This document shows, piece by piece, positions 17,923-36,571 of a stretch of 64,000 nucleotides of DNA (position 1 is its first letter; each line of letters begins with the position of its first letter). The translations under genes were made by a program, and so were the position numbers. The notes under the pieces are model-generated. The model was not told the DNA's origin, ran no database searches, and saw only the letters and a list, made by a program, of their open reading frames with translations. The DNA comes from Herminiimonas sp. (GTDB lineage: Bacteria; Pseudomonadota; Gammaproteobacteria; Burkholderiales; Burkholderiaceae): positions 248,001-312,000 of the forward strand of contig NZ_JAURVN010000014.1 in assembly GCF_030655415.1 (NCBI RefSeq), read 5' to 3'.

Positions 17923-17944
17923 CATAATATAAATTATACGAATG
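17917..17944 (-). other. Right dif-like attachment site
   Basis: The site reads ATTTGACATAA, TATAAA, TTATACGAATG. It agrees with the E. coli dif (this strand) at 22 of 28 positions by my count, including both arms. The XerD-side arm should be phage DNA and the XerC-side arm host DNA. Confidence 0.82.
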
Positions 17945-18042
17945 CCTGGTAGTTTTCATAGTGTTGCATGTTCTTGAATAACTACCGCAACAATCGCCTG
18001 TTAAATGGTATCTTTTAGCGTTGCATATTATTCCACGACTGA

Positions 18043-19263: not shown

Positions 19264-20790
19264 ATGGATCAACACCCTGCCGATTCTTCATCAGAACTTG
19301 CCTGTGCCAAAGATATATTAGGTAAATTCTGTGCTGCTTTGCCTCTGCTGCCGTCCGTTCTCCGATACCGCGACGAGTTCTCCGACACTATTCATTCGAT
19401 TCGCCACCCAGAGGAGAAAAGTAGCTTTGAATTAATGGTTCATGGAGATTCGCGAACTCTGGACTTCTCTAAGCTCGACTCTGATTGTGCACTTATATTT
19501 AAGCATGTGTTCGCGTTCCTCATTGTGCAGAATTTGAGTATAGGAACGGCTTATAACTACATCTTTTATGCTCATCAATTTACCCCCGCAGACGTTGCAT
19601 TAATTTTGGAGGCTCAGCCATCTGGTATTGCTAATGTCTGGAAAAACCTACGGGGACGTGAATTACAACCACAAGCATACAAAGCCGCAAAATCTTTACT
19701 TTATTTACTATGCGCATATAGGTTATACGGTTGGTCCAATGACTATCACGTATTTCTGAGTACTACCCTTCCCCTACCAGTTGTTGATAAATATGCCGCC
19801 GTACGGGCTGGCGATGTATTTTTATCGACAGATGAGGAGGCTGTGATTGTTCGCTATATAGATGAGATAGCTCAGCAACCAGGCATCGTCTCGTACAACA
19901 CCTTGGTAAATACGGGAATGCTAATTTGTGCTTACCAATTTGCAATGCGGCCATTTCAAATCGGAATGCTGGATCAACGTCACGTGAGGATATGGAATGA
20001 TGAAATATCCAACGAAACCACCGTTCATTTGTCATTTCACATGGCTAAACAGCGCGGTGGAAAGAACCGTATTCTATTAACACGAAGAGTGAAGCGAGAA
20101 TGGGTACCTATTTTCACACTCCTAAAAACGAAATTAGAGTTGAGCGGTACTGATGGGACTACGAAATTTTTCCAAGCGAAGTCCAGCATGGAAGTTGGTA
20201 ATCGAATCTCGACATTTGTGCGCAATCTGATTGATTCTGACGATATTGGAACGGCAACTGACTTACGTCATACAGCCGCTCAGCGCTTAGTCGATGCTGG
20301 AGCCAGTCATGAGGAGTTAGCAGAGTTCATGGGGCATGCGCAGACAGATACTGGCCTAGTGTATTACGCAACGTCTGCCTCGCATGCCGAACGTGTTAAT
20401 AGAGCTTTGGGCGCGTCGGAAGTATATCGGCGCGTAGAAAAAATCGCACATGATAAGTTCATCTCAAACGAGGAGCTAACTCAACTAAAGGAAGAGCAGC
20501 AGATTGCCGCCGTACCACATGGAATATCTATTGCCGGAATTGGAGGGTGCCAGTCTGGCCAGCCTAGCTGTCCTTACAATCCCATCACGTCTTGCTATGG
20601 GTGTCATAAATTCATGCCAGTGAGAGACATTGTGCTTCACGAAAAGGTGCTTGATAACATCCGAGAAATTGTATTGTTCTTTGAACGTAGTTCGCGGGCT
20701 GACGTAAAGTCACCAGCGTATATGCAACTGCAACGTACGATCGCAGAAATACAAGTAGTCATCGATGAGATTGAGAAAAATTCACGATGA
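19264..20790 (+). CDS. gmtY: Tyrosine recombinase, GmtY-like
   Basis: A 508-aa recombinase, second in the module. Catalytic residues are visible: AMRPFQIGML (first Arg), ATDLRHTAAQRLVDAG, EFMGHAQTD (Gly-His) and LVYYATSA (Tyr). A C-terminal cysteine cluster (GGCQSGQPSCPYN, then SCYGCHKFM) probably binds zinc and resembles the tail of Tn554-type transposases. Length, order and the partners that follow match the gamma-mobile-trio recombinase GmtY, which marks genomic islands rich in defence and toxin cargo. The trio name is from memory of family sizes and order, not a search. Confidence 0.7.
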   Translation: MDQHPADSSSELACAKDILGKFCAALPLLPSVLRYRDEFSDTIHSIRHPEEKSSFELMVHGDSRTLDFSKLDSDCALIFKHVFAFLIVQNLSIGTAYNYIFYAHQFTPADVALILEAQPSGIANVWKNLRGRELQPQAYKAAKSLLYLLCAYRLYGWSNDYHVFLSTTLPLPVVDKYAAVRAGDVFLSTDEEAVIVRYIDEIAQQPGIVSYNTLVNTGMLICAYQFAMRPFQIGMLDQRHVRIWNDEISNETTVHLSFHMAKQRGGKNRILLTRRVKREWVPIFTLLKTKLELSGTDGTTKFFQAKSSMEVGNRISTFVRNLIDSDDIGTATDLRHTAAQRLVDAGASHEELAEFMGHAQTDTGLVYYATSASHAERVNRALGASEVYRRVEKIAHDKFISNEELTQLKEEQQIAAVPHGISIAGIGGCQSGQPSCPYNPITSCYGCHKFMPVRDIVLHEKVLDNIREIVLFFERSSRADVKSPAYMQLQRTIAEIQVVIDEIEKNSR

Positions 20791-23108
20791 ACCAACATTA
20801 CACTTCATTCATTAAACTTGGAAAATCGCTCGCCAGCGACAAGGGATTAACATGGGATTTTCCTATTAGTGACGAAGGAAATGCCGTTGATGGAATTGGT
20901 TGGAATCTAACCGCATGTATCGGTGATGTCCCACCACCGACGTTCTATTTGCGTGATCTTGGTTATGAGTCGAAGGCAATTCAGCAAATCAATGCAGAAC
21001 GCGCCGCAGAAAATCTCCCCGTTTTACCTCGGCAAAGGCTCTCCCCTGCGTGGCAAGATTTGATGAAGGCAGCAGTTTCTGAACAATTGTTCTTTAAACG
21101 CAATTCGGCAGCACACGTCGCCTCACAAATTGCAAGACCTCTACGTATTTTGGCGACCTGTACTCAGAAGGAGCCTTGGGAGATAACGCTCGATGACCTT
21201 CAATATTCAGTTCGCATTGCGTCAATAATTCAAACCTCCGGCAAACTTTCCGAAGTTGTAGCGGGCATAGTCAAGGTCATCTTAGATCAATATCACATCT
21301 GTGATGCAGGACAGATGTACAGCATGCTCAGCGTGAAACGTGTTGCATTAAAAAACGTGAAGTCTAAGCACACTATGTCGGAAGATGAACTTCGCACCAA
21401 CCTTGAAGATCGCAAGCGGGCGGAAAGATTGCCTTCTAAACAGGCGTTCTGGGAATTAGTTCGAATAGTAATGACTGAGCGCCCCAGAACATTCATGGAT
21501 GAATTACGCTTCGCTGCAGTAAAAACGATGATCTTCACCGGTTTACGTGCTGGAGAAATTGTTCTTCTGCCCATAGACTGGAAACGTGAACGCACTTATC
21601 TTGATGCCAAGAAACAACCTGCGGGAAAAGCCGGTGGCTTTTCATCAGCATTGTTGTTGCGTCACTTTGCAGAAAAACAGCAGGAAGAAGAATCGGATAG
21701 CCGGATACTGAGGGTAAATGTGCAGCCGATCCCTGAAATGTTTCGTGAGTTACTAACTGACACATTGGAACGAGTTGCCGACATCACCGCCCCATTGCGC
21801 GAAACATTGAAACTGCAATGTCAGTCCGGGAGATTGCTTCCGTGGTATCAAAAAAACGAGCTCGTTCCGTTCACCCAACTCTATACGCATATCACTGGGA
21901 ACCCATTCTGGTTGGCAATCAAGCGAGAACCATTTTTAGACGAATATCGCTTAAATTTTGATGCTGCAATACTGCACAAATTACATGATTTCCAGAAAAC
22001 GCAATACAGCGTATCAATCAAACAGTTGGACATGTCAATTTACATGTTCGGTAATCGTCTGCAGAAGCAAATGGATAGTAAAGCCACTCTCCTCACTTAC
22101 CGCACTTCGGATGGCCATCCTATTAGTGCTAATGCTCGAAAATCTTGGGGCGAAACCTATTTGCATATTGGCGAACTGGAAGATCATATTAGGAAAATGA
22201 CGCCAACCAAAATCTCTGACACATTGCCTCTACCTGCAGAAACTGGAGCAATTCAACCATGGGAATTGCTGTTCATGCATCCCAAACGATCCCTCGCCGA
22301 AGAGCGCAATGAAGGTCTTTGCGACATCACTCGATACATCGCCGTGAGTCGACCTGACCCTACTCTAATAGGCTTTGCTCTTGGAGGCCAAAATCAGACA
22401 CCCTCTTTATTTGCTCAATACGGTGCGACAGAAGAAGATCGAAATCTGAAATTGGAGTCTCACAAACTACGGCATCTACAGAACACTGAGCTTTTTCGGT
22501 TAGGGGTCGCAGACACGATTATTTCAAAACGTTTTAATAGAAGAAGCGTTGCACAGAGCTACGAATATGATCATCGCAGCTTGGCTGAAGATCTTGAGCA
22601 AATATCCATTCCGGAAGAGATTGAGTTAATGCTCGGTGAAAAGGCGACGACCGTGGCTAAGATGATCAAAGCCGGCAAGGCTAACGGCCCTATCGTTGAG
22701 GCATTTCTCCGAATACAAGAAAAAGATGGCGACACTTCTGCTTACGAATATTTACGTGTTGAGGCTGATGGTTTCCACGCGACACCTTATGGGCACTGTT
22801 TGAATTCCTTCACAGTAGACCCCTGCCCCAAGCACCTGGAATGCTTTGCCAATTGTCGGCATCTATCTGCCACGGACCTACCTGAGAACAAGAAAAATCT
22901 CGTGCGTCTTGAAGAAAAGTTCAAAGTAGCCATCGAAACAATACGATTACGGCCATCGACAAGTATTGGCTGGCGTAATCAGCTTCAACATGCTGAAGAA
23001 CGTCTTTCTGGAGTTCAAAAATTGCTTGCTACTTCTCCAGGGGAGCTAGTTTTTCCGGATGGTGTTGACCTCTCTAAGCCTCATTCGAGAACGGTTGTCG
23101 ACGAGTAA
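20787..23108 (+). CDS. gmtZ: Large tyrosine recombinase, GmtZ-like
   Basis: A 773-aa integrase-like protein overlapping the previous stop by ATGA. It keeps a first Arg (FTGLRAGEIVLLPIDW), a H-x-L-R-H motif (SHKLRHLQNTELFRLG) and a C-terminal Tyr (RSVAQSYEYDHRS) with Asn in the usual second His place. The tail has a zinc-like cluster (GHCLNSFTVDPCPKHLECFA, then NCRHLS). It is far longer than ordinary integrases, with about 240 extra N-terminal residues and an insertion in the catalytic domain. This fits GmtZ or a TnpB-like protein of Tn554-type elements. Confidence 0.7.
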   Translation: MNQHYTSFIKLGKSLASDKGLTWDFPISDEGNAVDGIGWNLTACIGDVPPPTFYLRDLGYESKAIQQINAERAAENLPVLPRQRLSPAWQDLMKAAVSEQLFFKRNSAAHVASQIARPLRILATCTQKEPWEITLDDLQYSVRIASIIQTSGKLSEVVAGIVKVILDQYHICDAGQMYSMLSVKRVALKNVKSKHTMSEDELRTNLEDRKRAERLPSKQAFWELVRIVMTERPRTFMDELRFAAVKTMIFTGLRAGEIVLLPIDWKRERTYLDAKKQPAGKAGGFSSALLLRHFAEKQQEEESDSRILRVNVQPIPEMFRELLTDTLERVADITAPLRETLKLQCQSGRLLPWYQKNELVPFTQLYTHITGNPFWLAIKREPFLDEYRLNFDAAILHKLHDFQKTQYSVSIKQLDMSIYMFGNRLQKQMDSKATLLTYRTSDGHPISANARKSWGETYLHIGELEDHIRKMTPTKISDTLPLPAETGAIQPWELLFMHPKRSLAEERNEGLCDITRYIAVSRPDPTLIGFALGGQNQTPSLFAQYGATEEDRNLKLESHKLRHLQNTELFRLGVADTIISKRFNRRSVAQSYEYDHRSLAEDLEQISIPEEIELMLGEKATTVAKMIKAGKANGPIVEAFLRIQEKDGDTSAYEYLRVEADGFHATPYGHCLNSFTVDPCPKHLECFANCRHLSATDLPENKKNLVRLEEKFKVAIETIRLRPSTSIGWRNQLQHAEERLSGVQKLLATSPGELVFPDGVDLSKPHSRTVVDE

Positions 23109-23121
23109 ACGAGGAGAAATA

Positions 23122-23553
23122 ATGGAAGAAGTTGATTCGCAAATGAGGATAATTCTGGAGACGTTACTCGCGGAAGATGTGAACATTACAGCACGCGCAG
23201 TTGCACGTTTACATCCTTCAATTAAGGCAGCCTCATCGATTACTCGCAGTGAAGCTAGGAGTAAGCTTTTAGCCGATTACCAACGACAGCAATTAGCATA
23301 TCGAGGTTGGCGAAGCCGTGCTGGCAAACAATCTCATCACAGCATGGCGGTTGCCCTTGCCCAAAAAGAGCAACAGATCGCAGAACTTGAAGCCAATCTA
23401 CGACTTCTTACTGCTTCCCACGTCGCTATGTTGCGTGCAGTAGGGGCTATGGGAGGTTTTAATAAATGGGCACAGTTTTTCGAAAAACATCAAGAAGTAC
23501 GAACTAAACTAGTAGAGTTAGGAGCTATTCCAAACAATGTTACAGCGATGTAG
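23122..23553 (+). CDS. gmtX: Small helical recombination accessory protein, GmtX/TnpC-like
   Basis: A 143-aa mostly helical protein at the end of the recombinase operon, with a GAGGAGA ribosome site before the ATG at 23122. A basic N-terminal half with a possible helix-turn-helix (NITARAVARLHPSIKAASSI) leads into a coiled coil (ALAQKEQQIAELEANLRLL). Proteins of this size and place are TnpC in Tn554-like elements and GmtX in gamma-mobile-trio islands. A DNA-binding helper role is inferred. Confidence 0.65.
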   Translation: MEEVDSQMRIILETLLAEDVNITARAVARLHPSIKAASSITRSEARSKLLADYQRQQLAYRGWRSRAGKQSHHSMAVALAQKEQQIAELEANLRLLTASHVAMLRAVGAMGGFNKWAQFFEKHQEVRTKLVELGAIPNNVTAM

Positions 23554-23614
23554 GGAGAGCCAATCCCGATGAAAGGATTTCGCGCCCGCGAAATTATTGA
23601 TTAACAAGGATAAA

Positions 23615-23905
23615 TTGAAAAATCATCGTAAGACAGCAATTGAATCTGCGATAAATAACAACGCGATTAGTGGGCTAACGCCGAGTCCGTTTGCGATTTC
23701 CATTTTCGAGCAGTGGATATTGGGACATTGGACAACAAATGAGGCCGTGGAATTATTACGCCAATATCATATAGAACTCGAATTAACTTCGGCACAAAGC
23801 GATCTACAAGCGTCGCCCAATATGCTTGGAATTACTGATACGACTCGTATGAGACAGGCTGAAGCAGATCTAACAACATTAAGAATGGCTGACATGACTA
23901 ACTAG
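23615..23905 (+). CDS. Orphan VbhA-like antitoxin-domain protein
   Basis: A 96-aa protein whose first about 55 residues match the antitoxin VbhA/Fic-inhibitor domain: RKTAIESAINNNAISGLTPS followed by EQWILGHWTTNEAVELL. In true inhibitors the position before Gly is a glutamate (S/T-x-x-x-E-G); here it is Ser (AISGL). No Fic protein (H-P-F-x-D/E-G-N motif) is encoded nearby. The start is probably TTG at 23615, close behind AAGGA; another TTG (23597) is possible. It may be a relic or a repurposed DNA-binding regulator of the island. Confidence 0.6.
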   Translation: MKNHRKTAIESAINNNAISGLTPSPFAISIFEQWILGHWTTNEAVELLRQYHIELELTSAQSDLQASPNMLGITDTTRMRQAEADLTTLRMADMTN

Positions 23906-24033
23906 GTCGACCGATGGGAGAGCTGCTACATAATCAGCAAAAGTAATATTGCATTGAACAGTCATAGTGATGCGAAGCATGTCAGCGCAATGCTCAACAC
24001 CTGTTGGCGCGGAAACACACCCGAACAACGTAA

Positions 24034-25776
24034 TCAAGAGGAAGTAACCTCGCAGGTAACGCTAGAAGAATCTGCAGCACTTATTTCTATAACCTTATAC
24101 CAAAAACTCGCTGGCATTGGGTTCTTGAAATGTCTACAAGCGACGAAATCAAGTGCCCATAAACCTATGGCTAGAGTTTGAGAATTTTTTACCCAATCGT
24201 AACGCTCAAGTTGCATAAAATCTTTAACCCTTTGATTCAATAATTCAGAATTTTCGGGAAGATGAAACGGTGCTTCCGCATCCCCAGTCGAAAACTGGGC
24301 ATTTTCGTAATACCAACTGGATGACCAATCCTGTGTCGGATGCCAAAGTTGACCACACACATTTGAGTAGTCTGTATTACTACCATTTGAAAGCACTTGA
24401 TATTGCTCACTCAAACCTCTCAAGGAACACCAAGTGGCGATCGTGGGTAAGGTCCACGATGTGCTCATCAATTTTTCTGCGGTATCGGCATCGCCAAATA
24501 CTTCTAAGTCAATTAAATCATCCGTTGAATCTGTGCTTATTGGAAATGCTCGCTTACGCAAAAAATTAAAGTTAAGCCTATGTGCCAAATCATTCAACCA
24601 AGCGTCCAACTGTTTATAGCGTTTGGTAACGACCAGTAAGGTCAGCGCAAGATTGATTTCGACAATATGACGATCAAGCCTAGGTGAAGCCGTAGCATCA
24701 TGATTGTTAAGCAATACAACTAGTGCATCTGCAATGATCAAAGCATTGCGTTCTTTTTGTTTCTCATCTTCGTCGCTGATTGCCGGCCTAAATGCTTGGC
24801 ATAGGCCAACGGTTGCCACTAGGCCTATATGTTCAAAAAGTACCAGGGTATATTCGGCATTCTCTCGACAGTAACCGCTCATTCCATCACGAACTGAAAA
24901 ATGCTTTTGCATTTTTTCAAAATATTCCCTTGAAACTTGCAAGTATGCCTGCCACATATCGGCTAATGCGCTAAAAAAAACCTTTCTATCATCACTTTCA
25001 TAAAATTGAATACGATGCCATGACCACAAAAGTCCTCGCTCTATTACCCATAGTGCTTGCTTAATATCCCCTTCATTTCTTGCCCAATGTGAACAAACTT
25101 GCGCAGCCAAATTTACGCGACGCATGGCCTTCAACATCTGCGTCTGATTGCTAGGTGACGCAATCACGGAACCATCCTCCTGCAAACCAAGCTGCCGCCT
25201 TAAAACGTTTAAATAGTCACCAAATTTGTAATCGCGATCACCGCAAAGAGCCAGCGCCTTACGCAAATCTTGCCGATCATCTGATGCGAACAAAGTTTCG
25301 TCTAGAAGATATTTTTCTAAAAGCTCTGCTACCTTGTCACCGTGCCAAAAATGAAATGATGCTTTATCGCGATTTTTTTCTACATAACCTGTCCAATTAG
25401 GTAGCAACTCTTGCTTCAATTCCCCTGTGGTTGCTACGACCACAACCCTTCGGAGCAATACATATTCATTCGGAATATGTGAAGAAACAAAGACATCTAA
25501 AACTTCGTCGAGGCTGGGGCGCAAGTCAGCAGGTTCCGATGCACTCCACTCTCTTCGTCCAATGTTTCCCTGTTTAATTACAAAGAGCAGTATTTCCTTG
25601 ATGCCATCATCAGGGGAGTGACCAACAGCCGCGAAGTCAACGCCAAATTGTCGGATTCCAGCTTGAGGTTTAGATAATGGCACGTAACCCATTGCAACCA
25701 AAAGCTCAGGCAAAAGGCGATCAAATTCGTCTCTCTCCCGTAGAGTCCTTAAGTAATGAGAAAGAATCAACCTCAT
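24034..25776 (-). CDS. Mrr-like nuclease-domain protein with helical C-terminus
   Basis: A 580-aa protein, last in the leftward cargo operon. The first about 175 residues resemble a PD-(D/E)xK restriction-endonuclease (Mrr-like) fold: RLLPELLVAMGYVPLS, QFGVDFAAVG (metal Asp), ILLFVIKQGNI (strand with Lys) and a later VVVVATTGEL strand and HFWHGDKVAELLEKYLL helix. The usual Glu/Gln two residues before the Lys is not conserved, so activity is uncertain. The rest is alpha-helical with no known domain. It overlaps the upstream gene by ATGA, implying coupled translation and perhaps a complex. Confidence 0.6.
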   Translation of the reverse strand: MRLILSHYLRTLRERDEFDRLLPELLVAMGYVPLSKPQAGIRQFGVDFAAVGHSPDDGIKEILLFVIKQGNIGRREWSASEPADLRPSLDEVLDVFVSSHIPNEYVLLRRVVVVATTGELKQELLPNWTGYVEKNRDKASFHFWHGDKVAELLEKYLLDETLFASDDRQDLRKALALCGDRDYKFGDYLNVLRRQLGLQEDGSVIASPSNQTQMLKAMRRVNLAAQVCSHWARNEGDIKQALWVIERGLLWSWHRIQFYESDDRKVFFSALADMWQAYLQVSREYFEKMQKHFSVRDGMSGYCRENAEYTLVLFEHIGLVATVGLCQAFRPAISDEDEKQKERNALIIADALVVLLNNHDATASPRLDRHIVEINLALTLLVVTKRYKQLDAWLNDLAHRLNFNFLRKRAFPISTDSTDDLIDLEVFGDADTAEKLMSTSWTLPTIATWCSLRGLSEQYQVLSNGSNTDYSNVCGQLWHPTQDWSSSWYYENAQFSTGDAEAPFHLPENSELLNQRVKDFMQLERYDWVKNSQTLAIGLWALDFVACRHFKNPMPASFWYKVIEISAADSSSVTCEVTSS

Positions 25777-27740
25777 ATAAAAGTCTTCTTAAGCGTGCGA
25801 TAGTAAAAACCGCGATGATCATTACCAACGGAATCTAATGTATTTCGCCTTGGTAGCTCAATTGAGTATGAAACTGTATGCATGGTGCTAGGCTCACTAT
25901 ACTGCCCATGCGAATGATTAAAGAATCCGCGTCCTGCCTTCACAGGAATTTGAGTTGCAATCTGCCGCATAATGGATTTTTCGGATGCTTTTTCGCGAGC
26001 TTGATTCATTTGCTTATTTCTCGCGGCCTGAAACTTTCGCTGTAACTGTGCAGGGGGGCGAAGTTCATTGAGGCGAGGTAGCGCGTCCAATTCTTGCTGC
26101 AAAAGTTCTATTTCGACTCGCCATTCCTTAAGAACTAATTGAATACTTGGTCGTGTCTCAGCCTGCTCTGCTTGCTTAAGTGCGTCGACAGTCGTTCCAG
26201 GGTAGTCATATCCAATCTCCTCAACTAACAACCATCGCAGGATGGGAATGGTCTTAACCAAGGCGCTATCTTCTACCTGGAGAAACGAAAAAGCGATTGA
26301 AATCAGATATTTTGTGCTGTGAACAAATCCGAGAATGCGGGCAACCAAAAATCTCAAGTCGTTTTCGTTCATTTCAGCTAATCTGTCCGCATCTAATTGG
26401 ATAGTTTCGTAGCCATATACTTCAAGTTCCGAAAGCATGCTCGCGGCAGCACCTGCCAATTGACGGTCATCGTGCGAAAACCAATCTACTACGAGCTTTG
26501 CCAAAATAGCTGGTTTACCTGAAATCTTAACCATGCATTCATTAAAATTTTCAGAGAATGCGCTCTCCAATGGCGAGCTTCCGCTGTTGCGCAATGTCCA
26601 GGCTGTTAGAAACTTGATTACATCTATTGAGTGAGCACTGTCATCGGCTATATGCTGAGCAAGTACGTAGTCAATTCCGCCGAGGGAATCTTCACCGCTA
26701 GGTTTAAGTGCGACTAATAAGGGGAGCCAAATAAAAAAACGATTTTGCGACTGCAACTCGTTTGATCTTTGGAAAAGAGCATTTCCAATTAAAGCAAGAA
26801 CCTCCTGATCTTCATTTTTTGCAAGTGCAATCAATGCATCATCAAACGTAGTGCAAACATGAAGTACGTTTGTAGTGGCGCGTATCGCTTGCGTCCTTAA
26901 AATGCCGGGCCCTTCTTTCAAAGCTGCAAGAATATAGCCCTCAATTTCATTACGCTGCTCAATGGCCAATTCTGTTCGTTGTAGAAGCTGGCCAGCCATC
27001 CATCGGCCAACACCTTGCAATCGAGGCTTTGCAGCGTTTATGAGGCTCACACATAGAGACGCGGCCTTATTGATATCGGACTTCGAGATGGCATAAAGGG
27101 AAACGCTGATAAAGCTAGCCGTTATATCATCCGTTTCTTCTATCGCTCGTTGATACATTTCGTGTGCGATTTTTGGGCGCAGAGTAATCCATTTTTCGAT
27201 CGCGTTGTATAAAGTCCCAGACATCAAGTCATTTTTTGTTTTTTCGTGCTGTTCACGAGCAAGAAAAAATAAACTCTCGATATTCAAACTATCTGCATGA
27301 TGCAAATATGTTTCTAGTACATGGAGAACTCGAAAAGTATTTGGCCCCTCGCCTAGAAACTTCCCGGCAAGTAAAAAGACGTCTGCAATTTCAGATACTT
27401 TTAATAATAATCTACCCGCTACAAAATCTTCTCGACCAAATTCTCGGTTATAAAGATCATTAGCAACCGAAAACAGCTCTTTGAAATTTTCAATTTTTCC
27501 ACTGAAATACTCAGCATAAAGAAATTCAGCCAACAGTTGGTTACGATGTTTTAGTGACTCAAATTTTAGAACCCCAGACACTACTTCGTAACCGTCGCCC
27601 ACATTCGAGAGAGAGCCATCCCAATTATCAGGAAACGGGATGCTCAATTCTGTGTTCCCTGCCATATGCAGAACCAAAGCTAAATGAGCTGGAGTCACTC
27701 GAGATGATGCCAACGATTCGAGGATGAATGAATGTTTCAC
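25773..27740 (-). CDS. HEAT-repeat-like protein of unknown function
   Basis: A 655-aa protein that looks entirely helical, with repeated amphipathic helix pairs (such as GRWMAGQLLQRTELAIEQRN and KIDGKP-type turns), in the manner of HEAT or TPR scaffolds. There is no nucleotide-binding motif. The C-terminal about 100 residues are basic and probably partly disordered (RKFQAARNKQMNQAREKASE). It starts with GTG behind GAAGG, 129 bp after the upstream gene, and overlaps the nuclease-like gene by four bases. A sensor or scaffold for the nuclease-like partner is the likeliest role, by inference only. Confidence 0.55.
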   Translation of the reverse strand: MKHSFILESLASSRVTPAHLALVLHMAGNTELSIPFPDNWDGSLSNVGDGYEVVSGVLKFESLKHRNQLLAEFLYAEYFSGKIENFKELFSVANDLYNREFGREDFVAGRLLLKVSEIADVFLLAGKFLGEGPNTFRVLHVLETYLHHADSLNIESLFFLAREQHEKTKNDLMSGTLYNAIEKWITLRPKIAHEMYQRAIEETDDITASFISVSLYAISKSDINKAASLCVSLINAAKPRLQGVGRWMAGQLLQRTELAIEQRNEIEGYILAALKEGPGILRTQAIRATTNVLHVCTTFDDALIALAKNEDQEVLALIGNALFQRSNELQSQNRFFIWLPLLVALKPSGEDSLGGIDYVLAQHIADDSAHSIDVIKFLTAWTLRNSGSSPLESAFSENFNECMVKISGKPAILAKLVVDWFSHDDRQLAGAAASMLSELEVYGYETIQLDADRLAEMNENDLRFLVARILGFVHSTKYLISIAFSFLQVEDSALVKTIPILRWLLVEEIGYDYPGTTVDALKQAEQAETRPSIQLVLKEWRVEIELLQQELDALPRLNELRPPAQLQRKFQAARNKQMNQAREKASEKSIMRQIATQIPVKAGRGFFNHSHGQYSEPSTMHTVSYSIELPRRNTLDSVGNDHRGFYYRTLKKTFI

Positions 27741-27869
27741 GTTGAGCCTTCTTTTTTTGAGTGGGGCGTGCCTAGTGCAGCGCTATTACGCTGGATGGCT
27801 TACATTCAAAGAAACTCGTACGCGCTTTCGCATTACAAAATAATAGATGCGTCAACTAGAATAAACCTA

Positions 27870-29090
27870 TCAAAGTAATCGATCGCTGTAGTTGGTCAGG
27901 AAATGAGAAATCGCTCTTGCAGATACCGACGCAGCGTATTCTTGAAAATCATCGTTCTTCTGCAAATCACCTTTGTCGCATACTGCTTTAAGACTAATCA
28001 CAGTAATGTGGGGGGCGCAAGATTGAACCGCAGCATAAACACCGTACGTTTCCATATCAAGCCCGACCACGTTCTTGTGCTGTTGTAGTTTAATTCGAGC
28101 AGTAATCCGTTCGTCAGCCAAAACAGATGATCCAGTAGCCATCGGTCCTATCACGAGCTTCGGAATCGTTGTTTTATGTTGCACAGCGTCCATTGCAAAA
28201 GACTGCCAAAATTGGTTGTCTTTTTTAAATAAAATTAACGGACTACGTAGGCTTTCGCCAATATCAAGTTGATGGGGGGCAATCTGAAATGCATCTTCTC
28301 CTGCGGAATCAACGAACTTCCCGCTTTGCCAATCCCAAGAAACATCCGCAGCCACGACATCTCCAATTTCGGTTTTTCCAGGAAGTCCTGCACATATACC
28401 GCCCATGATTACGAGCTTTGGATTCAATAATACTAGGCATTTAGTAGTTAAAATCGCAGCTTGGACAGGTCCCATTCTGAGACAAAAAACTGCGACAACT
28501 TCCTTCGTTATGCCGGCAGTCTGGAATGTGCCCCTGCGCATAAGATGCTGCTCATCTAAAGGTTCGTATGCTCCCCAAGCGAGAGGTAAAGCTTCAATCG
28601 CAGTAAATTCCGGATCGATTAGAGCAGTAATGATCAGCACGTCACATTTCGGCAATACTGAAATGTGACTTTGGGATGATATAAATGCAGCCACCTTCTG
28701 TATGCTTTTTAATGCGTTGTCGTCTGTATCGTTGTAAGGAAGAATTCCCCATGGCCGGCCAATAAAATAGCCGTGCGCCAAATCGCTCAATTCTAATGAC
28801 GAACTTATTGGCAAAATGAACCTAGGCACATTTGCCGAGGTGGCTCTTTCATCTAAGCTCTCAAGTAACGCAATACTGTTACGTTCATGCTTTTCTCCAG
28901 CGAGCGACTTTGGTACAACAATGTCTACAATAAATAAGTCATATGTATGTTCACAAAGGAACCTCTCAGCATCATCAGTACAGATCGCCGTATCTATTCT
29001 TTCTATAAAGTCACTAGATTCTTGAAGAAATTTTAGTAGTTTTATTTTTTTGGACGGGTCGTCCTCTAGAAGAAGTACTTGCAGGGACAT
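27870..29090 (-). CDS. Receiver domain fused to nucleoside phosphorylase/nucleosidase
   Basis: A 406-aa two-domain protein. Residues 1-130 form a response-regulator receiver: LLLEDDPSKK (acid pair) and LFIVDIVVP (phosphoacceptor Asp). Residues 145-400 are a PNP/UDP phosphorylase-MTA/SAH nucleosidase-type enzyme: LVIMGGICAGLPGKTEIGDV, VVGLDMETYGVYAA (substrate-binding Met-Glu) and LKAVCDKGDLQKNDD (catalytic Asp). The fusion implies that phosphorylation or partner binding switches nucleoside or nucleotide cleavage on. It is third in the operon, four bases after the stand-alone receiver gene. Related nucleosidase domains act as effectors in bacterial conflict systems. Confidence 0.8.
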   Translation of the reverse strand: MSLQVLLLEDDPSKKIKLLKFLQESSDFIERIDTAICTDDAERFLCEHTYDLFIVDIVVPKSLAGEKHERNSIALLESLDERATSANVPRFILPISSSLELSDLAHGYFIGRPWGILPYNDTDDNALKSIQKVAAFISSQSHISVLPKCDVLIITALIDPEFTAIEALPLAWGAYEPLDEQHLMRRGTFQTAGITKEVVAVFCLRMGPVQAAILTTKCLVLLNPKLVIMGGICAGLPGKTEIGDVVAADVSWDWQSGKFVDSAGEDAFQIAPHQLDIGESLRSPLILFKKDNQFWQSFAMDAVQHKTTIPKLVIGPMATGSSVLADERITARIKLQQHKNVVGLDMETYGVYAAVQSCAPHITVISLKAVCDKGDLQKNDDFQEYAASVSARAISHFLTNYSDRLL

Positions 29091-29094
29091 AATT

Positions 29095-29562
29095 TTATTT
29101 GCTCTGATTAATGGACTTATGGATTAATTCGACGAAATTAGATTCCCACGTCGAATACGCTGAATCGAAATATACGGACCCACAATAATTCAATGGAAAT
29201 TGCCGTTTGAGACGATCGCTAAGCTGTTTAAGATTTAATGCATTTTCACCGTCACCTAATGACGGATATGAGGTGACGACAATGACAGGAGTGTTCAGAT
29301 CGAACCGGTCCAAATGTTCGAACACCTCGATACCTCCAAATGGTCGAGGAGTGCCACCGCGCTCGCGTCTATCGATGTCAAACGTCGGCAGCGACATATC
29401 AGCAACAATCAGGTCTGGTCCCGGTTCTACAATCGAATCTATAGCCGATCGGACAGAGTAGGCAACGCTTGTTTTTAAGTCCGGAATCTCTCGTTTTAAA
29501 ATGGCTCGAATACTTTCTAACTTTGCATCGCTATCTTCGATAATTAAAATGTGCACGCTCAT
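29095..29562 (-). CDS. Stand-alone response-regulator receiver protein
   Basis: A 155-aa receiver domain without output domain. It has ILIIEDSDAKLESI (acid pair), DLIVADMSLPTFD (phosphoacceptor Asp) and IVVTSYPS (switch Thr/Ser), but the conserved Lys after beta-5 is not evident (NYCGSVYFDS instead). An insertion after the phosphoacceptor loop (DIDRRERGGTPRPFGG) is also atypical. It overlaps the large ATPase-like gene by ATGA and is followed at four bases by the receiver-nucleosidase gene, so it may shuttle or gate a signal between the two. Confidence 0.8.
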   Translation of the reverse strand: MSVHILIIEDSDAKLESIRAILKREIPDLKTSVAYSVRSAIDSIVEPGPDLIVADMSLPTFDIDRRERGGTPRPFGGIEVFEHLDRFDLNTPVIVVTSYPSLGDGENALNLKQLSDRLKRQFPLNYCGSVYFDSAYSTWESNFVELIHKSINQSK

Positions 29563-32500
29563 TCCTTTACTGCGCTATCAACAAATGGCACATAAGAAAG
29601 TTCGAATTGAAGATTAAATTTATCTTTTTGAATGAAATCAAAAGAGAGATTGGTATTCTTCGATTGGTGCACCAAGGCTGCCAGTTTGTACAAGCCAGAG
29701 TGCTTATTTCGCCTAGCACCATCTACAAACGTTTTTCTCTGAATATCCGCTTTAATAGATTGAAATCTTTGCAATTTATCGGGCTTCCTAGCAGAAGGTG
29801 CCGTTTCGCTTGTTATGTCGAACGTCAGTAATGATCGTTCTCGGTCGAAATCAATTAGAAAAGAGATTTTGTTATCCATTTTCTTACCCGAATGTTGGGC
29901 GACATTATCGACCGCAACATATAAAGCATCAGAAACGATTGCAAAACCTCTACTGTCAAGCGCAATGTCCGTCTTTATGCATGGCTCTACAATGGGCTTG
30001 AACCCTGGCACCTGTCCAGAAACTACTGCTACAGCAATATCAATCGTTTTCCTCAATTCGTGATACTGAGTTTCAAGGAGTAACTTTGGTACACCAACCC
30101 AGCTGGCAATCGTGATTGCTCGACGTTCCAGCTCTTCAGCTGCTCGTTGCACAGTAGAGATTACTGTTATATCTACGCCTTGGGTTGTGAGTTCAAGTGA
30201 AAATTTTTGGAAAGAAAGTCGCAGAATGCGTAATATTTCTGCTTCAATATCAGGACGAGTCACTTCCAGCTTAAATGATAAAAACATCCAAAATGACGAG
30301 ATGCACTCTCGCGTAAATTGTTCAAGATGAGTGCAAGTTTGAGCAGCGGATCGAACCAGTGCAATCAACACCGAGTTGATCGATAATTCGAAAACACCAC
30401 GCGGCTTGGTTCGAGATTTCACATTAAAATAATGATCACGCAAGACCGCAACAAGCTGGTCAATGGACTCTGAAAACCGTGCATTCGCGGCAAAAACGAT
30501 TTTTTTTTGCTTCGCATTCATTTGCGAACATGCACGCATAACAGTACCAGCAGGCTGATATATTCCGTGATGAATCGTACCAATTAGGTCATCCTTTTCA
30601 AGAACTCCGCGTAACTCACTTGAAATAGTGTTGTGCCGGATACGCCGTCCAATAATTATGTCCAATCCAGAAGCGGGGTCGTAAAGAAAACGCTGAAGAA
30701 TGTTGTTTGTTAATTGCACCAACAAATCATCCGCGTCGTTTTTAGGTATCTGGAATATGCGTGCGGAAGGAGTGTCTATGTATTTCAAAATGTCGTTAAG
30801 CGACTCCGCTTGCCCAATGCCACTTGCGACCAATTTTTTGTAACGTTGAAAATCTGCTTGATATTCGGTCGAAATATAGTTGACTACCGCCTCTTCATCG
30901 ACGTGAACTTTACTGTCATCTAGAACTGAAAGACCATCATCAACCTGAAGCGCATCCTCTAAGCTTTGTGCTTCTGTTTCAAATAAAACGGCACGATTTG
31001 TATGAAGTGCTGCAAGGTGTCTCAATAGCGATACGCGAACCCGTCTGACATGGCGAGATTCACCCATTCCAGGAAGCAGTTCTATCGTCGCGATATCACA
31101 GACGTTGTATCCAAAGTAGGCAACTACCTCATGATCTATATCTGTCGCTAATTTGGGTATAAGCTCGTCTATTGTTAAACAGCTGTGTTTTGTTAGCAGT
31201 TCTTCTGTAGCAAATCGTTTAAAAGTGCGTAATTTTTCGTCGTCAATAACTTTACAAGCATGAGTCAGTGCTATAGCTAGTTCTACTGATGGTCCGAATG
31301 TTCGAACCTTTACCCAACGTTTTCCTATAAATAAGTCGCTAAAAGGAAGTAAGGGGAGCAACCGTTCATTGGTCTGCCCTGCAGCTGCGCATATGGACAC
31401 ACATTCTTGCAGTTCGCCCGTTTGGAAAAGTGCATCAGCATAGAGAATCGTCAAAGCATCTTCTACATCTCCACCAACCCCTGTTTTTAGTTCCACTCTT
31501 AAGAATTCAACTAACTCTTCTATACGTTGTTCATTACGTAGTTCATAGATACGCCAAAATTTTCGAAGAGCTTGAACTGCATCTTTTGAAAACGGATCTG
31601 TATTTTTTGATGTTAACTTCGTATGAAGTCCAATAAGAAATGGGGTGGCAAGTACCGCAGGATCATTAAATAATACGAGTTCGGGCAAAGTTGGAATATT
31701 TTGTATTTCACCAATTGCATTCGCCACAGGCAACCAACTCATATTAATGAAAGCCTTCGAAGCTTCATCTGCCTGTAATTCATTGCCTCTTGTAGATAAT
31801 TGCGCAGCTACTGCGCTCACAGCTTGAACGTCTTCGCAAGAAATTGACCCCTGCTCTGGAGATTGGAAAAAATAATTTAGTACGTTAAATGCGAGATCAC
31901 TAATCTCATCACATTTTGGTTCAGTGCCAGATGTTTTAAGAGCAAAAGATTTTATCGCCTCGGCAAGAAGTGTAAGTCCCTCTTTCGCCAAATCGACCGT
32001 CCTCCCAGAAAAATGGCGACTCTGAGAAAGTACAAGGTTACAAACCTTCGTGAATGTAAAAAACAGGTCTACAAGAGTAGTAGATTGTTCGTATGCAATG
32101 ATCTCAGCTAAAACATCTGAGCGAGGCTCAATCCATCCATACAAACGAAACTTAAGGTAAGACTTAAGTGAATTGGAAAGCTTGCTATCGTCAATAACTT
32201 TTTTGACGGACGATCGAAACCGTAAAGAACTTTGTGCTGGTTCGTTGCGCACACCAAAGTAATAGAAAAAAAACCGCTGGTGTCCTTGACCACCAATTGA
32301 CAATTTCTCTACCTCACTTTTAAGCTTTTCCACGCCACAGTTCAGTCGCGTTAAAGCCAATTTGCTTTCAACGTACCAGAAGGAGTAGCCCTCTGAATTC
32401 TTCACTTCCTCTAACGTACTCAATGCATCTGAATACTGACGTCGTCCGACATTTTCAGCGATTCGTTTTGCCACTTTAGAAAATGAAATAATTTCAGGAA

Positions 32501-32882
32501 TGCAAGTTTTTAAGCGTCGAATACTTGCTTCAAGCTCTTTATCTAAACCACTTGTTAATAACTCTTGTGGCAGCATCCCTAAAGATGGCAAATGTACTCC
32601 TAATCCTCCAGAATCTAAATCCAAGGACGGAATAATACTGTCAAGCCACTTATTGAATTTCTCAACATCAGCTTTCGTTAGTCCACTTCTTGCGGATTCA
32701 ATCGCTTTATTCAAGCGATGAGTTCTGGTTTGCTGAACGTCCCAAATTGAGGTGCGCTCAATTGGAGCAACGTCACCACGTCGCTTAAGAGTTTTTACAG
32801 CAGGTTGTAAACTTGCAAGAGCCCCACGAGCAAGGTTTTTCGCATCGTTTAATTTTTTTGGGTGTGCTTTGATATGGCGCAT
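29559..32882 (-). CDS. Large helical sensor with degenerate GHKL/histidine-kinase-like ATPase end
   Basis: A 1107-aa cytosolic protein, first gene of the cargo operon. Residues 1 to about 850 are helical and repeat-like with no catalytic motif. The end resembles a GHKL ATPase: an N-box-like ALYVAVDNVAQHSGKK and a G2-like KHSGLYKLAALVHQS, but no clear D-x-G-x-G box and no obvious H-box histidine. It is followed by two receiver proteins, which supports a phospho-signalling or nucleotide-binding sensor. No membrane span, so the signal is intracellular. The ATG at 32882 has only a weak ribosome site. Confidence 0.6.
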   Translation of the reverse strand: MRHIKAHPKKLNDAKNLARGALASLQPAVKTLKRRGDVAPIERTSIWDVQQTRTHRLNKAIESARSGLTKADVEKFNKWLDSIIPSLDLDSGGLGVHLPSLGMLPQELLTSGLDKELEASIRRLKTCIPEIISFSKVAKRIAENVGRRQYSDALSTLEEVKNSEGYSFWYVESKLALTRLNCGVEKLKSEVEKLSIGGQGHQRFFFYYFGVRNEPAQSSLRFRSSVKKVIDDSKLSNSLKSYLKFRLYGWIEPRSDVLAEIIAYEQSTTLVDLFFTFTKVCNLVLSQSRHFSGRTVDLAKEGLTLLAEAIKSFALKTSGTEPKCDEISDLAFNVLNYFFQSPEQGSISCEDVQAVSAVAAQLSTRGNELQADEASKAFINMSWLPVANAIGEIQNIPTLPELVLFNDPAVLATPFLIGLHTKLTSKNTDPFSKDAVQALRKFWRIYELRNEQRIEELVEFLRVELKTGVGGDVEDALTILYADALFQTGELQECVSICAAAGQTNERLLPLLPFSDLFIGKRWVKVRTFGPSVELAIALTHACKVIDDEKLRTFKRFATEELLTKHSCLTIDELIPKLATDIDHEVVAYFGYNVCDIATIELLPGMGESRHVRRVRVSLLRHLAALHTNRAVLFETEAQSLEDALQVDDGLSVLDDSKVHVDEEAVVNYISTEYQADFQRYKKLVASGIGQAESLNDILKYIDTPSARIFQIPKNDADDLLVQLTNNILQRFLYDPASGLDIIIGRRIRHNTISSELRGVLEKDDLIGTIHHGIYQPAGTVMRACSQMNAKQKKIVFAANARFSESIDQLVAVLRDHYFNVKSRTKPRGVFELSINSVLIALVRSAAQTCTHLEQFTRECISSFWMFLSFKLEVTRPDIEAEILRILRLSFQKFSLELTTQGVDITVISTVQRAAEELERRAITIASWVGVPKLLLETQYHELRKTIDIAVAVVSGQVPGFKPIVEPCIKTDIALDSRGFAIVSDALYVAVDNVAQHSGKKMDNKISFLIDFDRERSLLTFDITSETAPSARKPDKLQRFQSIKADIQRKTFVDGARRNKHSGLYKLAALVHQSKNTNLSFDFIQKDKFNLQFELSYVPFVDSAVKE

Positions 32883-33283
32883 TTCGACTTAGACAATCAT
32901 TACGTATGCCAGGACATTGAAACATATGCCCTTGGCAGGCTAGGTTTTTTGCAAATTGCGCCTAATCGGCGTTCACCAAGCTTCTTCGTTTAAGGAATTA
33001 ATCAAAGTGAAATCTGACTGGCACACTATTTTTAACAGCAACATGTCCAGCACTGAAAATGCTAATTGATGTCATCACTTAGAACCGCTGAGCCCAAGTT
33101 AGAAAATCCTAAATAGTTATTCTAATAAGATCGTTCGTAGGATTGGTGTACATCGTTTTTAGCCAGCTTATTCTCCTAGGGAAGGATACAGTAGGCCATC
33201 CCATGAATATGGTACGGAAACTAGTTTGAATAGGATCGATGACTCAATAGTTTTATCAACTTAGCTAGTGGCTTTAATGAAAA
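32883..33283. other. Spacer upstream of the cargo operon
   Basis: This 401 bp AT-rich stretch separates the cargo operon start from the Cas2-like gene's stop. It should hold the operon promoter. I find no gene, no repeat array and no strong palindrome in it. Confidence 0.5.
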
Positions 33284-33541
33284 TTAATTTATATCAGGGG
33301 GACGCCTCAACAAATTGAAGCCAGACCAGTCCGTTACGCGCGATACGAGCAATCCATCATCATTATCGATATACCTTCGAAAATGAGACGCAAGACCTTG
33401 GCAAGTTAGATCAGCAACGACTGGCTTAATGGCCCAAAGGGACTTTAGGATACGAATTCCGCCCATTTTTTCTAACTCTTCAATAAGCTTTGGATAATTT
33501 CGATCCTTACGAAGATCGTATTCAACAAAAAATATCGCCAT
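33284..33541 (-). CDS. Cas2/SinR-like small ferredoxin-fold protein
   Basis: An 85-aa protein of the Cas2/SinR/VapD-like type: it starts MAIFFVEYDLRKDRNYPKL, with the beta-1 Asp and following Arg/Lys, then KMGGIRILKSLWAIK and DGLLVSRVTDWSGFN. Cas2-like stand-alone proteins of this kind occur without CRISPR, and some VapD relatives are ribonucleases. No CRISPR array or cas1 is present. The ATG at 33541 has an AAGGGG ribosome site; an in-frame ATG at 33565 is worse. A perfect SOS box lies 109 bp upstream. Confidence 0.7.
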   Translation of the reverse strand: MAIFFVEYDLRKDRNYPKLIEELEKMGGIRILKSLWAIKPVVADLTCQGLASHFRRYIDNDDGLLVSRVTDWSGFNLLRRPPDIN

Positions 33542-33649
33542 TGTGGTCCCCTTAAAAAGAGCCAATCAATTCCCTAAAAACTCCACGTTAATATTCGTGA
33601 TTCTCTAGCAACGATTCTAAGAACTAAATTGGGACATCGCAAGAAATAA

Positions 33650-33665
33650 CTGTATTTACATACAG
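33650..33665 (-). promoter_or_regulatory. LexA (SOS) box
   Basis: CTGTATTTACATACAG is a perfect match to the CTG-N10-CAG LexA consensus. Read leftward, it covers a promoter-like TTGATT-17-TATGTA whose -10 falls inside the box. The only leftward gene downstream is the Cas2-like gene (start 33541), which is therefore predicted to be SOS-induced. Confidence 0.7.
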
Positions 33666-33784
33666 GGTTGTTGTTTTGAAATCAAAACTAATAATAACTT
33701 TTGAAAACGCTACTCTGTGGCCCCCTTAAGGAGAGATCGGACTCTAACAGCAGGCCTCTTCGGTATAACCAAGGCTCGATAAAA

Positions 33785-33814
33785 TGAAAAGGCCTCACCA
33801 GTTGGTGAGGCCTT
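33785..33814 (-). terminator. Strong leftward terminator after the tRNA-like sequence
   Basis: An 11-bp perfect stem AAGGCCTCACC-AGTT-GGTGAGGCCTT is followed leftward by a TTTT run. It ends 2 bases from the tRNA-like 3' end. Confidence 0.85.
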
Positions 33815-33815
33815 C

Positions 33816-33882
33816 GAATACTGGTGGGATTCGAACCCACAACTCCAAGCTTGCGAAGCCCGGCCGGAATCCAATCCGCAGT
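33816..33882 (-). tRNA. Degenerate tRNA-like gene, loop TTCGCAA (anticodon CGC)
   Basis: Read leftward, this stretch has a perfect T-arm (GTGGG-TTCGAAT-CCCAC), a five-base variable loop, an anticodon arm CGGGC-TTCGCAA-GCTTG (two G-T pairs; anticodon CGC would read Ala GCG) and a D-arm-like CGG-ATTGGATT-CCG containing the GG pair. The acceptor stem is broken: the 3' side CAGTATT finds only ACTG on the 5' side. A strong terminator follows. It may be a decayed or mobile-element tRNA, or the scar of an insertion. No standard isoacceptor that I know matches. Confidence 0.4.
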
Positions 33883-34000
33883 CGCCCGATCATATTAGCA
33901 CGGAGCCCCACTTCGATCTCCCCAATGTTGTTAGTACACAATCGATTAACAAACATCTGGAGCAATCAATTTCATTTTGCGGTCAAATTTACAGAATCAA

Positions 34001-34079
34001 ATGACAACAAAAGCTCTACACTTATAATAAAAATCACATCCGCATAAATTTATGCTAAGGTATGCATAAATTTATGCGG
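34001..34079 (+). promoter_or_regulatory. Promoter and twin palindromic operator of the RHH gene
   Basis: A promoter-like ATGACA-16-TATAAT (34001-34028) is followed by two copies of the palindrome GCATAAATTTATGC (34042-34055 and 34064-34077), 22 bp centre to centre. With flanking bases the whole is a perfect inverted repeat (34040-34079). Its last GG begins the ribosome site (GGAGGT) of the gene at 34088. Binding here would block both transcription and translation start; autoregulation is inferred. Confidence 0.75.
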
Positions 34080-34087
34080 AGGTAACT

Positions 34088-35206
34088 ATGTCTATGCAAA
34101 ACTTAAACTTGCCTAATCTTTTTCAAACGATGTTTCGGCAAGGATCTGCCGAGAATAGCGAGCCTACCGCAGCGGTCGATAGTCGATTGGATGGAATGGT
34201 ATCCATGACAATTCGCGTTCCACCTGCTCTTCGTAGCTATTATGAAATCCAGGCCAAGGCGATTGGCGCCGCAAGTCCTTCCGCACTCATAGCTATGGCA
34301 TTGGAAGGTGTACGGCATGAGACCAATGCCTTATTTTCTTCCGATTTGACTTCTAAAGTTTCGCAAGATGCACGCGTAGTTAGAGAACGCCTTTTACATT
34401 TGTTTGATGCACATAAATTCAATGCGTTAATGATTGCAGATTTTTTAAAGGAAGATGGATTCACACTAGAAACACTTCAAAACCCTAGCGCATTTACAAG
34501 CCTTCTTTCTATCCCGATGCTGGAAAGAATTGCTGATTCTTTTAACGTAAATCGCGCTTGGCTAACAAATACTGTCGATAGTAGTTCGGGACCCAGTACC
34601 TGTGTTTGCGAGTGGTACAAAAGACCCGGAGCTGCATGCAAACGCATAGCCGAACTTTACAAACAAAATCTTAAACTACGTATTATTTTTTTGAGAAGGC
34701 ATCGCGCCAAGTTCCCTCAAGCATTCAAAGAGTCGGAAGATGCCCAATGGGAACAAATTGGCATAATTTGTCAAACCGAACATTCCACTCCATCAGGAGC
34801 TAAATATTATAAATATGAACGATGGTCTTTTGATCGCTGGAATAACCCGCGAGGGCGAGAGTCGTTTAAAGCAGTTGCAATGTGGATTGCACAAGTGCGC
34901 TTGGTCTTGCACTCTGGAATTTCGCTTGATTCTATCGAAGTTGATGAAAATTTATTAACTGAGCTGGCGAATGGGAAAAGTTTGCCTGCCTTAATTTACG
35001 TTGAAAAGAATAAGAAAGGCAGCTGGGACATTACAGATTACTTGCCAGATCCTAGATGGGAGGCGGAACATGAAAAAGATGATGTTCTAGCTGTTGAGAA
35101 CCATTATGAATTCCATAAGTTGGATCAATATCTAAATGATGTTGGTACTGATAAAGAAAGTGTTGATGCCATGAAAAAAGATTTAGCTCAACGCCGTATT
35201 AAATAG
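34088..35206 (+). CDS. Ribbon-helix-helix-type regulator with unknown C-terminal domain
   Basis: A 372-aa protein. Residues about 33-78 (DGMVSMTIRVPPALRSYYEI, then AIGAASPSALIAMALEGVRH) look like a ribbon-helix-helix DNA-binding domain. A second helical part (MLERIADSFNVNRAWLTN) could be a helix-turn-helix. The C-terminal half has a Trp-rich segment (YKYERWSFDRWNNPRGRES) and no known family. The twin palindromes overlapping its ribosome site point to self-control. No toxin partner is adjacent. Confidence 0.6.
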   Translation: MSMQNLNLPNLFQTMFRQGSAENSEPTAAVDSRLDGMVSMTIRVPPALRSYYEIQAKAIGAASPSALIAMALEGVRHETNALFSSDLTSKVSQDARVVRERLLHLFDAHKFNALMIADFLKEDGFTLETLQNPSAFTSLLSIPMLERIADSFNVNRAWLTNTVDSSSGPSTCVCEWYKRPGAACKRIAELYKQNLKLRIIFLRRHRAKFPQAFKESEDAQWEQIGIICQTEHSTPSGAKYYKYERWSFDRWNNPRGRESFKAVAMWIAQVRLVLHSGISLDSIEVDENLLTELANGKSLPALIYVEKNKKGSWDITDYLPDPRWEAEHEKDDVLAVENHYEFHKLDQYLNDVGTDKESVDAMKKDLAQRRIK

Positions 35207-35501
35207 CGCAACAGCTATTATTTCCCACGCGCCCTTATCGATTTCCTGTTGCGTCCCAGAGCAGTGATTGCGCAACAATTGGTCGAATGTAGCAAAGCAA
35301 CATCCAGCAAAGAAAATTTCTTCGCAAAACTGTTTTTTGTCGAGTAAATTGCAGCGACAACGTGACGCAACACGGTGCCGCAAGTACCAAGATTGCGAAG
35401 TTAATGATTGTGGATCGGACCTATATAGTGGATACCTCGCACTCTCAAATCGATTACTTCCACCTCCCGCCAGAGCCTCAGAATCAACCACGACAAAGCT
35501 T

Positions 35502-35843
35502 CTAGCGAATACACTCACGATGGTAACGAAGTTGATTGGCTTCAAGTTGATTGACCAAGGAAGTCCGTAACAAAGTAGATCCAGGCGATACAGAATAAAT
35601 AATGTCTGAATCGTAGCGGGCTATGGAGTTTCTCGTATTGGTAATGGTGTCCTTGATCGCACCGCACTGTTTTGGAGTGATATTGATGTCTTGAATTACG
35701 GCTTCATCTTTCATACCAATCTTTGCGCACTCATAGTCAGTAAAGGTCTTTTTACCTTTGCTGTCGACACAAACCTTAACTTGAGCGATTGATTGAAGAG
35801 GAAGTAAGACTGCTAGAGCAACTACCAAAAGCGGAAAATTCAT
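35502..35843 (-). CDS. Secreted DUF4124-like small protein
   Basis: A 113-aa protein with a signal peptide (FPLLVVALAVLLPLQSIAQ). The mature start KVCVDSKGKKTFTDYECAK resembles DUF4124 proteins (a beta-hairpin with 'y-k-y-D--G---ysD'-type pattern). Four cysteines may pair in the periplasm. Function unknown. Ribosome site weak; the start is set by the signal peptide. Confidence 0.6.
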   Translation of the reverse strand: MNFPLLVVALAVLLPLQSIAQVKVCVDSKGKKTFTDYECAKIGMKDEAVIQDINITPKQCGAIKDTITNTRNSIARYDSDIIYSVSPGSTLLRTSLVNQLEANQLRYHRECIR

Positions 35844-35868
35844 ATTGTGATTTTGTATTTATAAGTAT

Positions 35869-36204
35869 TTAGTTCACACGGGACCGATTGTTCTGCAACC
35901 CGACAAATGCACGTTCGATAGCTTCAAGCTTACCGCAGCCAATTTTGCCAGCTTTAGTATGTTCTAAGGCAATCAATCTATCCGCAGTCTTATCATCGCC
36001 ACGCAATGCCTTAATTAACCTTTTTCTAGCTTTAACCGCAAGATAAGCCGTTGAAGTATTACGACTCCCCCTGGAATCACGCCTAAAGAATGAAACTAGG
36101 GCAGAAATAACGAAAATAGCTATGCAAAGTGATATCCAAAACGTGGATATATCCGTAACCCATTCAGGTAAATCGTGGTGACCTCCTCCCCCTCTTCGCG
36201 GCAT
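35869..36204 (-). CDS. Small membrane protein homologous to a prophage protein
   Basis: A 111-aa protein with a Gly/His-rich N-terminus, one membrane helix (FWISLCIAIFVISALVSFF) and a conserved tail (ARKRLIKALRGDDKTADRLI, then EAIERAFVGLQNNRSR). The tail is plainly homologous to the prophage protein at 17350-17631. A GGAG ribosome site precedes the ATG. It suggests that this corner is a remnant of another phage or element. Confidence 0.65.
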   Translation of the reverse strand: MPRRGGGGHHDLPEWVTDISTFWISLCIAIFVISALVSFFRRDSRGSRNTSTAYLAVKARKRLIKALRGDDKTADRLIALEHTKAGKIGCGKLEAIERAFVGLQNNRSRVN

Positions 36205-36244
36205 CTACTACTCCAATTTTTATATTAAGCAGCCAATAAATTGA

Positions 36245-36571
36245 TTATTTATCAGCTTTACCAAAACCCTCAAACAAACCAAGCACCGGCCCGTCCAGCA
36301 TTATGGTCAAAGGATGATCGCTTGCCGAACTGATCAAACCAACCGCATCCAAATTATCAGACCCTTTATTCACGGGCGCGTCGACTACTGGCGTTAAAAA
36401 GTTGGTGGCGCGTGCGATCTCTAGTGAACGTTCGCGGTCGTCTTTGTCGTGATAACCCTCGGCGCTGGTGAAAATGATTTTTCCATTGGCCCAAAATCGC
36501 CACCGGTATTTACCTTGGGACGCGGCTAAAGGATCATCCAGCGCGGTTTGCTCGTATCTTTCAAAATACAT
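36245..36571 (-). CDS. DUF1508/YegP-like protein
   Basis: A 108-aa protein with the DUF1508 pattern: YFERYEQTA start, GKYRWRFWANGKIIFTSAEG and the YHDKDDRERSLEIARA repeat end. The family is small, cytosolic and of unknown function, often stress-linked. The ATG at 36571 has an AAGGGA ribosome site. GC content is back to that of the core genome. Confidence 0.75.
   Translation of the reverse strand: MYFERYEQTALDDPLAASQGKYRWRFWANGKIIFTSAEGYHDKDDRERSLEIARATNFLTPVVDAPVNKGSDNLDAVGLISSASDHPLTIMLDGPVLGLFEGFGKADK

Follow-up and report, generated by a model that had tools for sequence, protein, structure and literature searches.

The closest described relatives of the locus analysed here are two named anti-phage systems, Detocs and Olokun. 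Detocs couples a two-component signalling relay to an enzyme that destroys ATP, and Olokun pairs a helical protein with a nuclease-like one. Published descriptions in PMC11728103 and in the glossary of PMC11249213 speak for this assignment, and PNP effectors are tabulated for Detocs in PMC10952713; cleavage of ATP by DtcC and buffering of phosphate by DtcB come from the literature on other Detocs members. Olokun is a named system in PMC10121019 and, according to a 2025 paper (PMC12592470), has not been thoroughly characterised.

The window, meaning the whole 64,000-nucleotide stretch of Herminiimonas sp. DNA that was analysed, contains five leftward (minus-strand) open reading frames of 1107, 155, 406, 655 and 580 aa, and the ORF call gave their sizes, overlaps and gaps exactly as the original prediction had listed them:

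29559-32882, minus strand, gene 1, dtcA-like, 1107 aa
29095-29562, minus strand, gene 2, dtcB-like, 155 aa
27870-29090, minus strand, gene 3, dtcC-like, 406 aa
27741-27869, minus strand, 129-bp gap between the Detocs set and the Olokun set (genes 3/4)
25773-27740, minus strand, gene 4, oloA, 655 aa, GTG start
24034-25776, minus strand, gene 5, oloB, 580 aa

Genes overlap by 4 bases at junctions 1/2 and 4/5 and lie 4 bp apart at junction 2/3, while the sole wide gap (129 bp) is the boundary of the Detocs and Olokun gene sets. Each of the five products has a PADLOC family match (E 1.2e-41 to 5.6e-156), and the ORFs are therefore not due to chance. Family matches, gene order and separate occurrence in the loci and genomes examined lead us to read the five genes as two separate, already named anti-phage systems, Detocs and Olokun, abutting in an AT-rich, recombinase-bearing island (probability roughly 0.93); the conserved phospho-acceptor and nucleosidase residues and the predicted folds also count for this reading.

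Searches of PADLOC-DB matched gene 1 to PDC-M60A (E 2.3e-123, best stretch residues 433-1097), gene 2 to PDC-M60B (E 1.2e-41) and gene 3 to PDC-M60C (E 2.8e-109, residues 4-406 of 406). Because the best stretch of DtcA starts at residue 433, its N-terminal part is divergent from the model. PADLOC names genes 1-3 as candidate PDC-M60 only, not as Detocs; we take PDC-M60 to be Detocs, given the matching three-gene anatomy. The sequence features that define Detocs were found, namely adjacent dtcA-dtcB-dtcC genes, a histidine kinase (DtcA), a stand-alone receiver (DtcB) and a receiver-PNP fusion (DtcC).

The DtcA-like product of gene 1 has a helical N-terminal region followed by a C-terminal GHKL ATPase domain (937-1100), with H750, within the motif GRRIRH, as the candidate phospho-acceptor. 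Nothing in this protein scored above the Pfam cut-off, and the histidine-kinase-type ATPase domain is supported by the predicted structure, for which BCKDK and PDK were the best structural matches; a phytochrome from a plant and a single histidine kinase from a bacterium came within 1 Z of them. BCKDK and PDK have the same ATPase fold, but phosphorylate serine. In precomputed Pfam data, PF27260 is assigned to all 63 DtcA homologues listed (P0121-P0183), and it was absent from the Pfam scan of gene 1. Gene 2 encodes a DtcB-like lone receiver (PF00072, E 1.8e-10, above the Pfam cut-off), the phospho-acceptor of which, D55, is kept in 18/18 homologues, two split DtcB being excluded. The DtcC-like protein of gene 3 combines a receiver (D56) with a PNP/MTAN-type nucleosidase (PF01048, E 1.3e-14, above the cut-off); its receiver is sub-threshold in Pfam (17.7 vs 30.2 bits), yet falls inside the PDC-M60C span of residues 4-406. 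D56 is present in 20/20 DtcC homologues and the nucleosidase ME and D motifs in 18/20. Sequence searches of solved structures returned one MTA/SAH nucleosidase for DtcC (E 2.2e-5), a single row at E 0.78 for the DtcA profile and one designed protein for DtcB.

Genes 1-3 thus resemble Detocs in gene order, in their similar sizes, in the succession of sensor, lone receiver and receiver-PNP protein, and in the residues that are conserved (H, D, D and those of the nucleosidase). They differ in that the window set is followed by Olokun genes, which is so in none of the other Detocs loci examined. In two of those loci (L074, 3987-5192; L075, 6974-8152) the DtcC receiver precedes a non-PNP effector, which by eye looks alpha/beta-hydrolase-like (HSFG) with a hydrophobic end.

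By analogy with the published system, DtcA would sense an infection cue, probably via its helical N-terminal region, and would autophosphorylate a histidine, for which H750 is the best candidate. Phosphate would pass from DtcA to DtcB, which on its literature role would soak up leak signal, and to DtcC, the nucleosidase of which would then degrade ATP so that phage growth stops, as reported in the literature. The original prediction had proposed a phosphorelay built from an ATPase-domain sensor, a lone receiver and a receiver-nucleosidase and expected to end in nucleotide loss; this outline is supported and in effect re-derives Detocs.

Genes 4 and 5 correspond to Olokun. Gene 4 matched OloA of PADLOC-DB with E 3.9e-83 (residues 83-652 of 655 on model positions 18-594 of 596) and gene 5 matched OloB with E 5.6e-156 (residues 1-563 of 580); neither had anything above the Pfam cut-off, gene 4, labelled a HEAT protein in the original prediction, having no Pfam match, and sequence searches of solved structures gave none for OloB or OloA at E up to 1. 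As in Olokun, OloA comes directly before OloB; each of the two is matched across most of its length, and they share a 4-base overlap. What sets the window pair apart is the Detocs set that ends 129 bp upstream of it, an arrangement unseen in the 16 genome loci compared (in L015 the upstream DNA is too short to tell). The statement that such a gene set is absent from described systems is not supported, since genes 1-3 match Detocs (as PDC-M60) and genes 4-5 match Olokun. The original prediction had named a match to an already named system as grounds for abandoning it, and such a match was found, to two systems. That the locus is a new, undescribed five-gene defence system is therefore exceedingly improbable: the combination of Detocs and Olokun was not found described in the literature searched, but both halves match existing PADLOC families and occur separately.

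The predicted model of OloB comprises a restriction-endonuclease-like N-terminal domain (residues 1-162) and a helical C-terminal part. Residues 1-162 of the model align with FokI/MspJI/Mrr-type PD-(D/E)XK nucleases and with the N-terminal domain of Avs4, so that predicted structure gives moderate support to a restriction-nuclease-like N-terminus, and the homologue alignment shows E17, D47 and K68 as conserved. Unlike these nucleases, OloB lacks the usual acid two residues before the lysine, the position being occupied by V in 53/58 homologues and by T in 5/58. MspJI has Q instead of the acid two residues before its active-site lysine. The replacement of this acid by V/T makes nuclease activity uncertain; possibly OloB is a nuclease whose active site is non-canonical, V/T-x-K taking the place of D/E-x-K. 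Of the proposal that gene 5 encodes an Mrr-like nuclease acting as a second arm of the relay, the first part stands to the extent of the PD-(D/E)XK-like N-terminal fold in the predicted model; the second found no support.

The same motif bears on whether the island is decayed or inactive, since the departure of OloB from canonical (D/E)xK could be taken as a sign of decay. The departure is common to 58/58 aligned homologues and is thus not decay of this copy; furthermore, all five frames are open and the key Detocs residues are present, so we regard a decayed island as very unlikely. Judging by their sequences, the window copies of Detocs and Olokun would be active, and OloA may control an attack on nucleic acid by the nuclease-like OloB.

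A possible variant of Olokun was seen in two loci, L035 (7096-9686) and L078 of E. coli TB06053 (8102-10680), where a gene of about 300 aa precedes OloB. The short gene of L035 matches OloA in its later part only (371-622 of 634). For that of E. coli TB06053, position and size were the sole criteria; annotated AAA ATPase and CHAT protein genes are found just upstream.

Whether the two sets belong together was examined through their occurrence elsewhere. The Olokun sample consisted of 16 loci obtained by scanning one-genome-per-species contigs with the OloB alignment, and OloA was directly before OloB in all 16 by HMM search (15/16 by single-sequence tblastn). Dtc genes were found in 0/16 of these loci within the flanking DNA examined, which upstream of OloA extended for about 8 kb in 11 loci, 2.0-2.9 kb in four and about 170 bp in L015, making 15 testable just upstream. 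Genome searches with DtcA gave matches in 1/398 (phylum sample), 8/392 and 8/398, and in 0/399 of the order sample (the phylum and order samples being searched with the PADLOC DtcA model), the last of which returned no match of any sort and so shows no absence of DtcA. DtcA, DtcB and a DtcC-type receiver protein occurred in order in 17/17 extended DtcA loci (DtcB being split over two frames in L070 and L075), and OloA/OloB in 0/17 of these genome loci within the flanking DNA examined (at least 5.4 kb after DtcC in 15/17, about 0.3 kb in two). Genome-wide, OloB was found in 0/17 Detocs genomes, with a positive control of 12/12 Olokun genomes. The DtcC model matched 17/17 Detocs genomes, with best E values between 4.6e-142 and 1.3e-25, in 15 of them at nearly full length and in two over the receiver part, whereas among the 12 Olokun genomes searched it gave no more than partial receiver or PNP matches in 11 and none in the twelfth, the best at E 9.9e-13 and each spanning about 205 of 407 positions at most.

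Plasmids gave a similar picture. Two plasmids, one from Sphingobium and one from E. coli, carry dtcA-dtcB-dtcC sets that match PDC-M60A/B/C in PADLOC, and the flanking 6 kb or so on each side hold no Olokun genes. In PADLOC, OloB is matched by L035 and L036. None of the 24 plasmid records matched by DtcA was among the 34 matched by OloB; DtcC matched 68 records, of which the overlap comparison covered 40. As DNA queries, the window oloAB had no match in E. coli genomes, the E. coli plasmid dtcA matched only that plasmid's own genome (1/5426) and the Klebsiella oloB matched 2/5426 other genomes. Viral contigs yielded no relative of OloB or DtcA, and the neighbours of Olokun (18 loci; at most three upstream and two downstream ORFs each) had no cross-locus similarity.

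The neighbourhood survey proposed with the original prediction, for conserved co-occurrence of all five genes, did not find the sets together in any of the Olokun or Detocs genome loci compared, within the flanking DNA examined (long enough on the relevant side in 15/16 and 15/17), and the separation of the sets across the 16 Olokun and 17 Detocs loci, with OloB missing from the Detocs genomes, speaks against the five genes as one system. In such a coupled system the DtcA phosphorelay would drive both ATP cleavage by DtcC and an OloAB nuclease arm. In the 129-bp gap (27741-27869), consensus sites resembling a promoter or a terminator were not called. The shared strand, the small gaps and the lack of a called terminator-like site there would suit such coupling, but neither OloA nor OloB has a Pfam receiver match up to E 1, the Dtc and Olo sets are apart in the loci and genomes examined, and the DtcA and OloB plasmid records do not overlap; we consider it very improbable. 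Nothing examined points to functional coupling of Detocs and Olokun in this island beyond strand and spacing. It is also very doubtful that the two are co-transcribed here as a graded pair, in which loss of ATP through DtcC and attack on nucleic acid by OloB would together stop phages that evade either one by itself. Two separate systems remain the preferred reading, and their shared surroundings include recombinase genes:

18043-23553, plus strand, recombinase module: two tyrosine recombinases (406 and 508 aa), then ORFs of 773 and 164 aa
18043-19263, plus strand, 406-aa tyrosine recombinase, PF00589 above cut-off
19264-20790, plus strand, 508-aa tyrosine recombinase, PF00589 just below cut-off

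The adjoining recombinase module had been part of the original prediction, and two tyrosine-recombinase genes do lie to the left of the five genes on the plus strand. Its description of the five genes as AT-rich was likewise borne out, with a GC of 0.41-0.44 (2-kb windows) vs about 0.46-0.55 on either side of an AT-rich zone that runs from about 17000 to 37000; this zone is therefore wider than the five genes alone. For the 773-aa and 164-aa ORFs (20787-23553), none of Pfam, NCBIfam and PHROGs supplied a match by which to identify them. A portion of the 773-aa protein is similar to a protein annotated as an integrase, which is encoded close to the Detocs genes on E. coli plasmid L034. No NCBIfam model named GmtY, GmtZ or GmtX matched the five ORFs of 18043-23905, the presence of GMT models in NCBIfam being unconfirmed. 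A search of 10000-39000 for island ends found, under its settings, one 15-bp inverted match and no direct repeats.

To the left of the recombinases, 13230-17321 holds filamentous-prophage-like genes (a TspB-type C-terminal domain, a Zot/pI-type assembly protein and a rolling-circle replication protein). On the other side, upstream of DtcA, a 93-aa ORF (33284-33565) is Cas2-like just below the Pfam cut-off (22.9 vs 23.8 bits) and also matches phrog_1090. ARAGORN called a tRNA-Ala(cgc) at 33815-33886, which had no Rfam match at gathering scores and was overlapped at relaxed scores by just a 17-base tmRNA fragment; it may be a tRNA remnant. About 3 kb from it are two genes matching PF00581 and PF00586, presumably selenouridine synthase-like and selenophosphate synthetase-like, respectively. 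A perfect 17-bp inverted repeat with a loop of 8 (34039-34080), a possible operator, lies just before a 372-aa ORF at 34088.

With two named systems in place of a supposed new one, follow-up of this island can draw on what is known of Detocs. For Olokun, the predicted restriction-nuclease-like fold of OloB, together with its altered and strictly conserved motif, would offer a concrete test.
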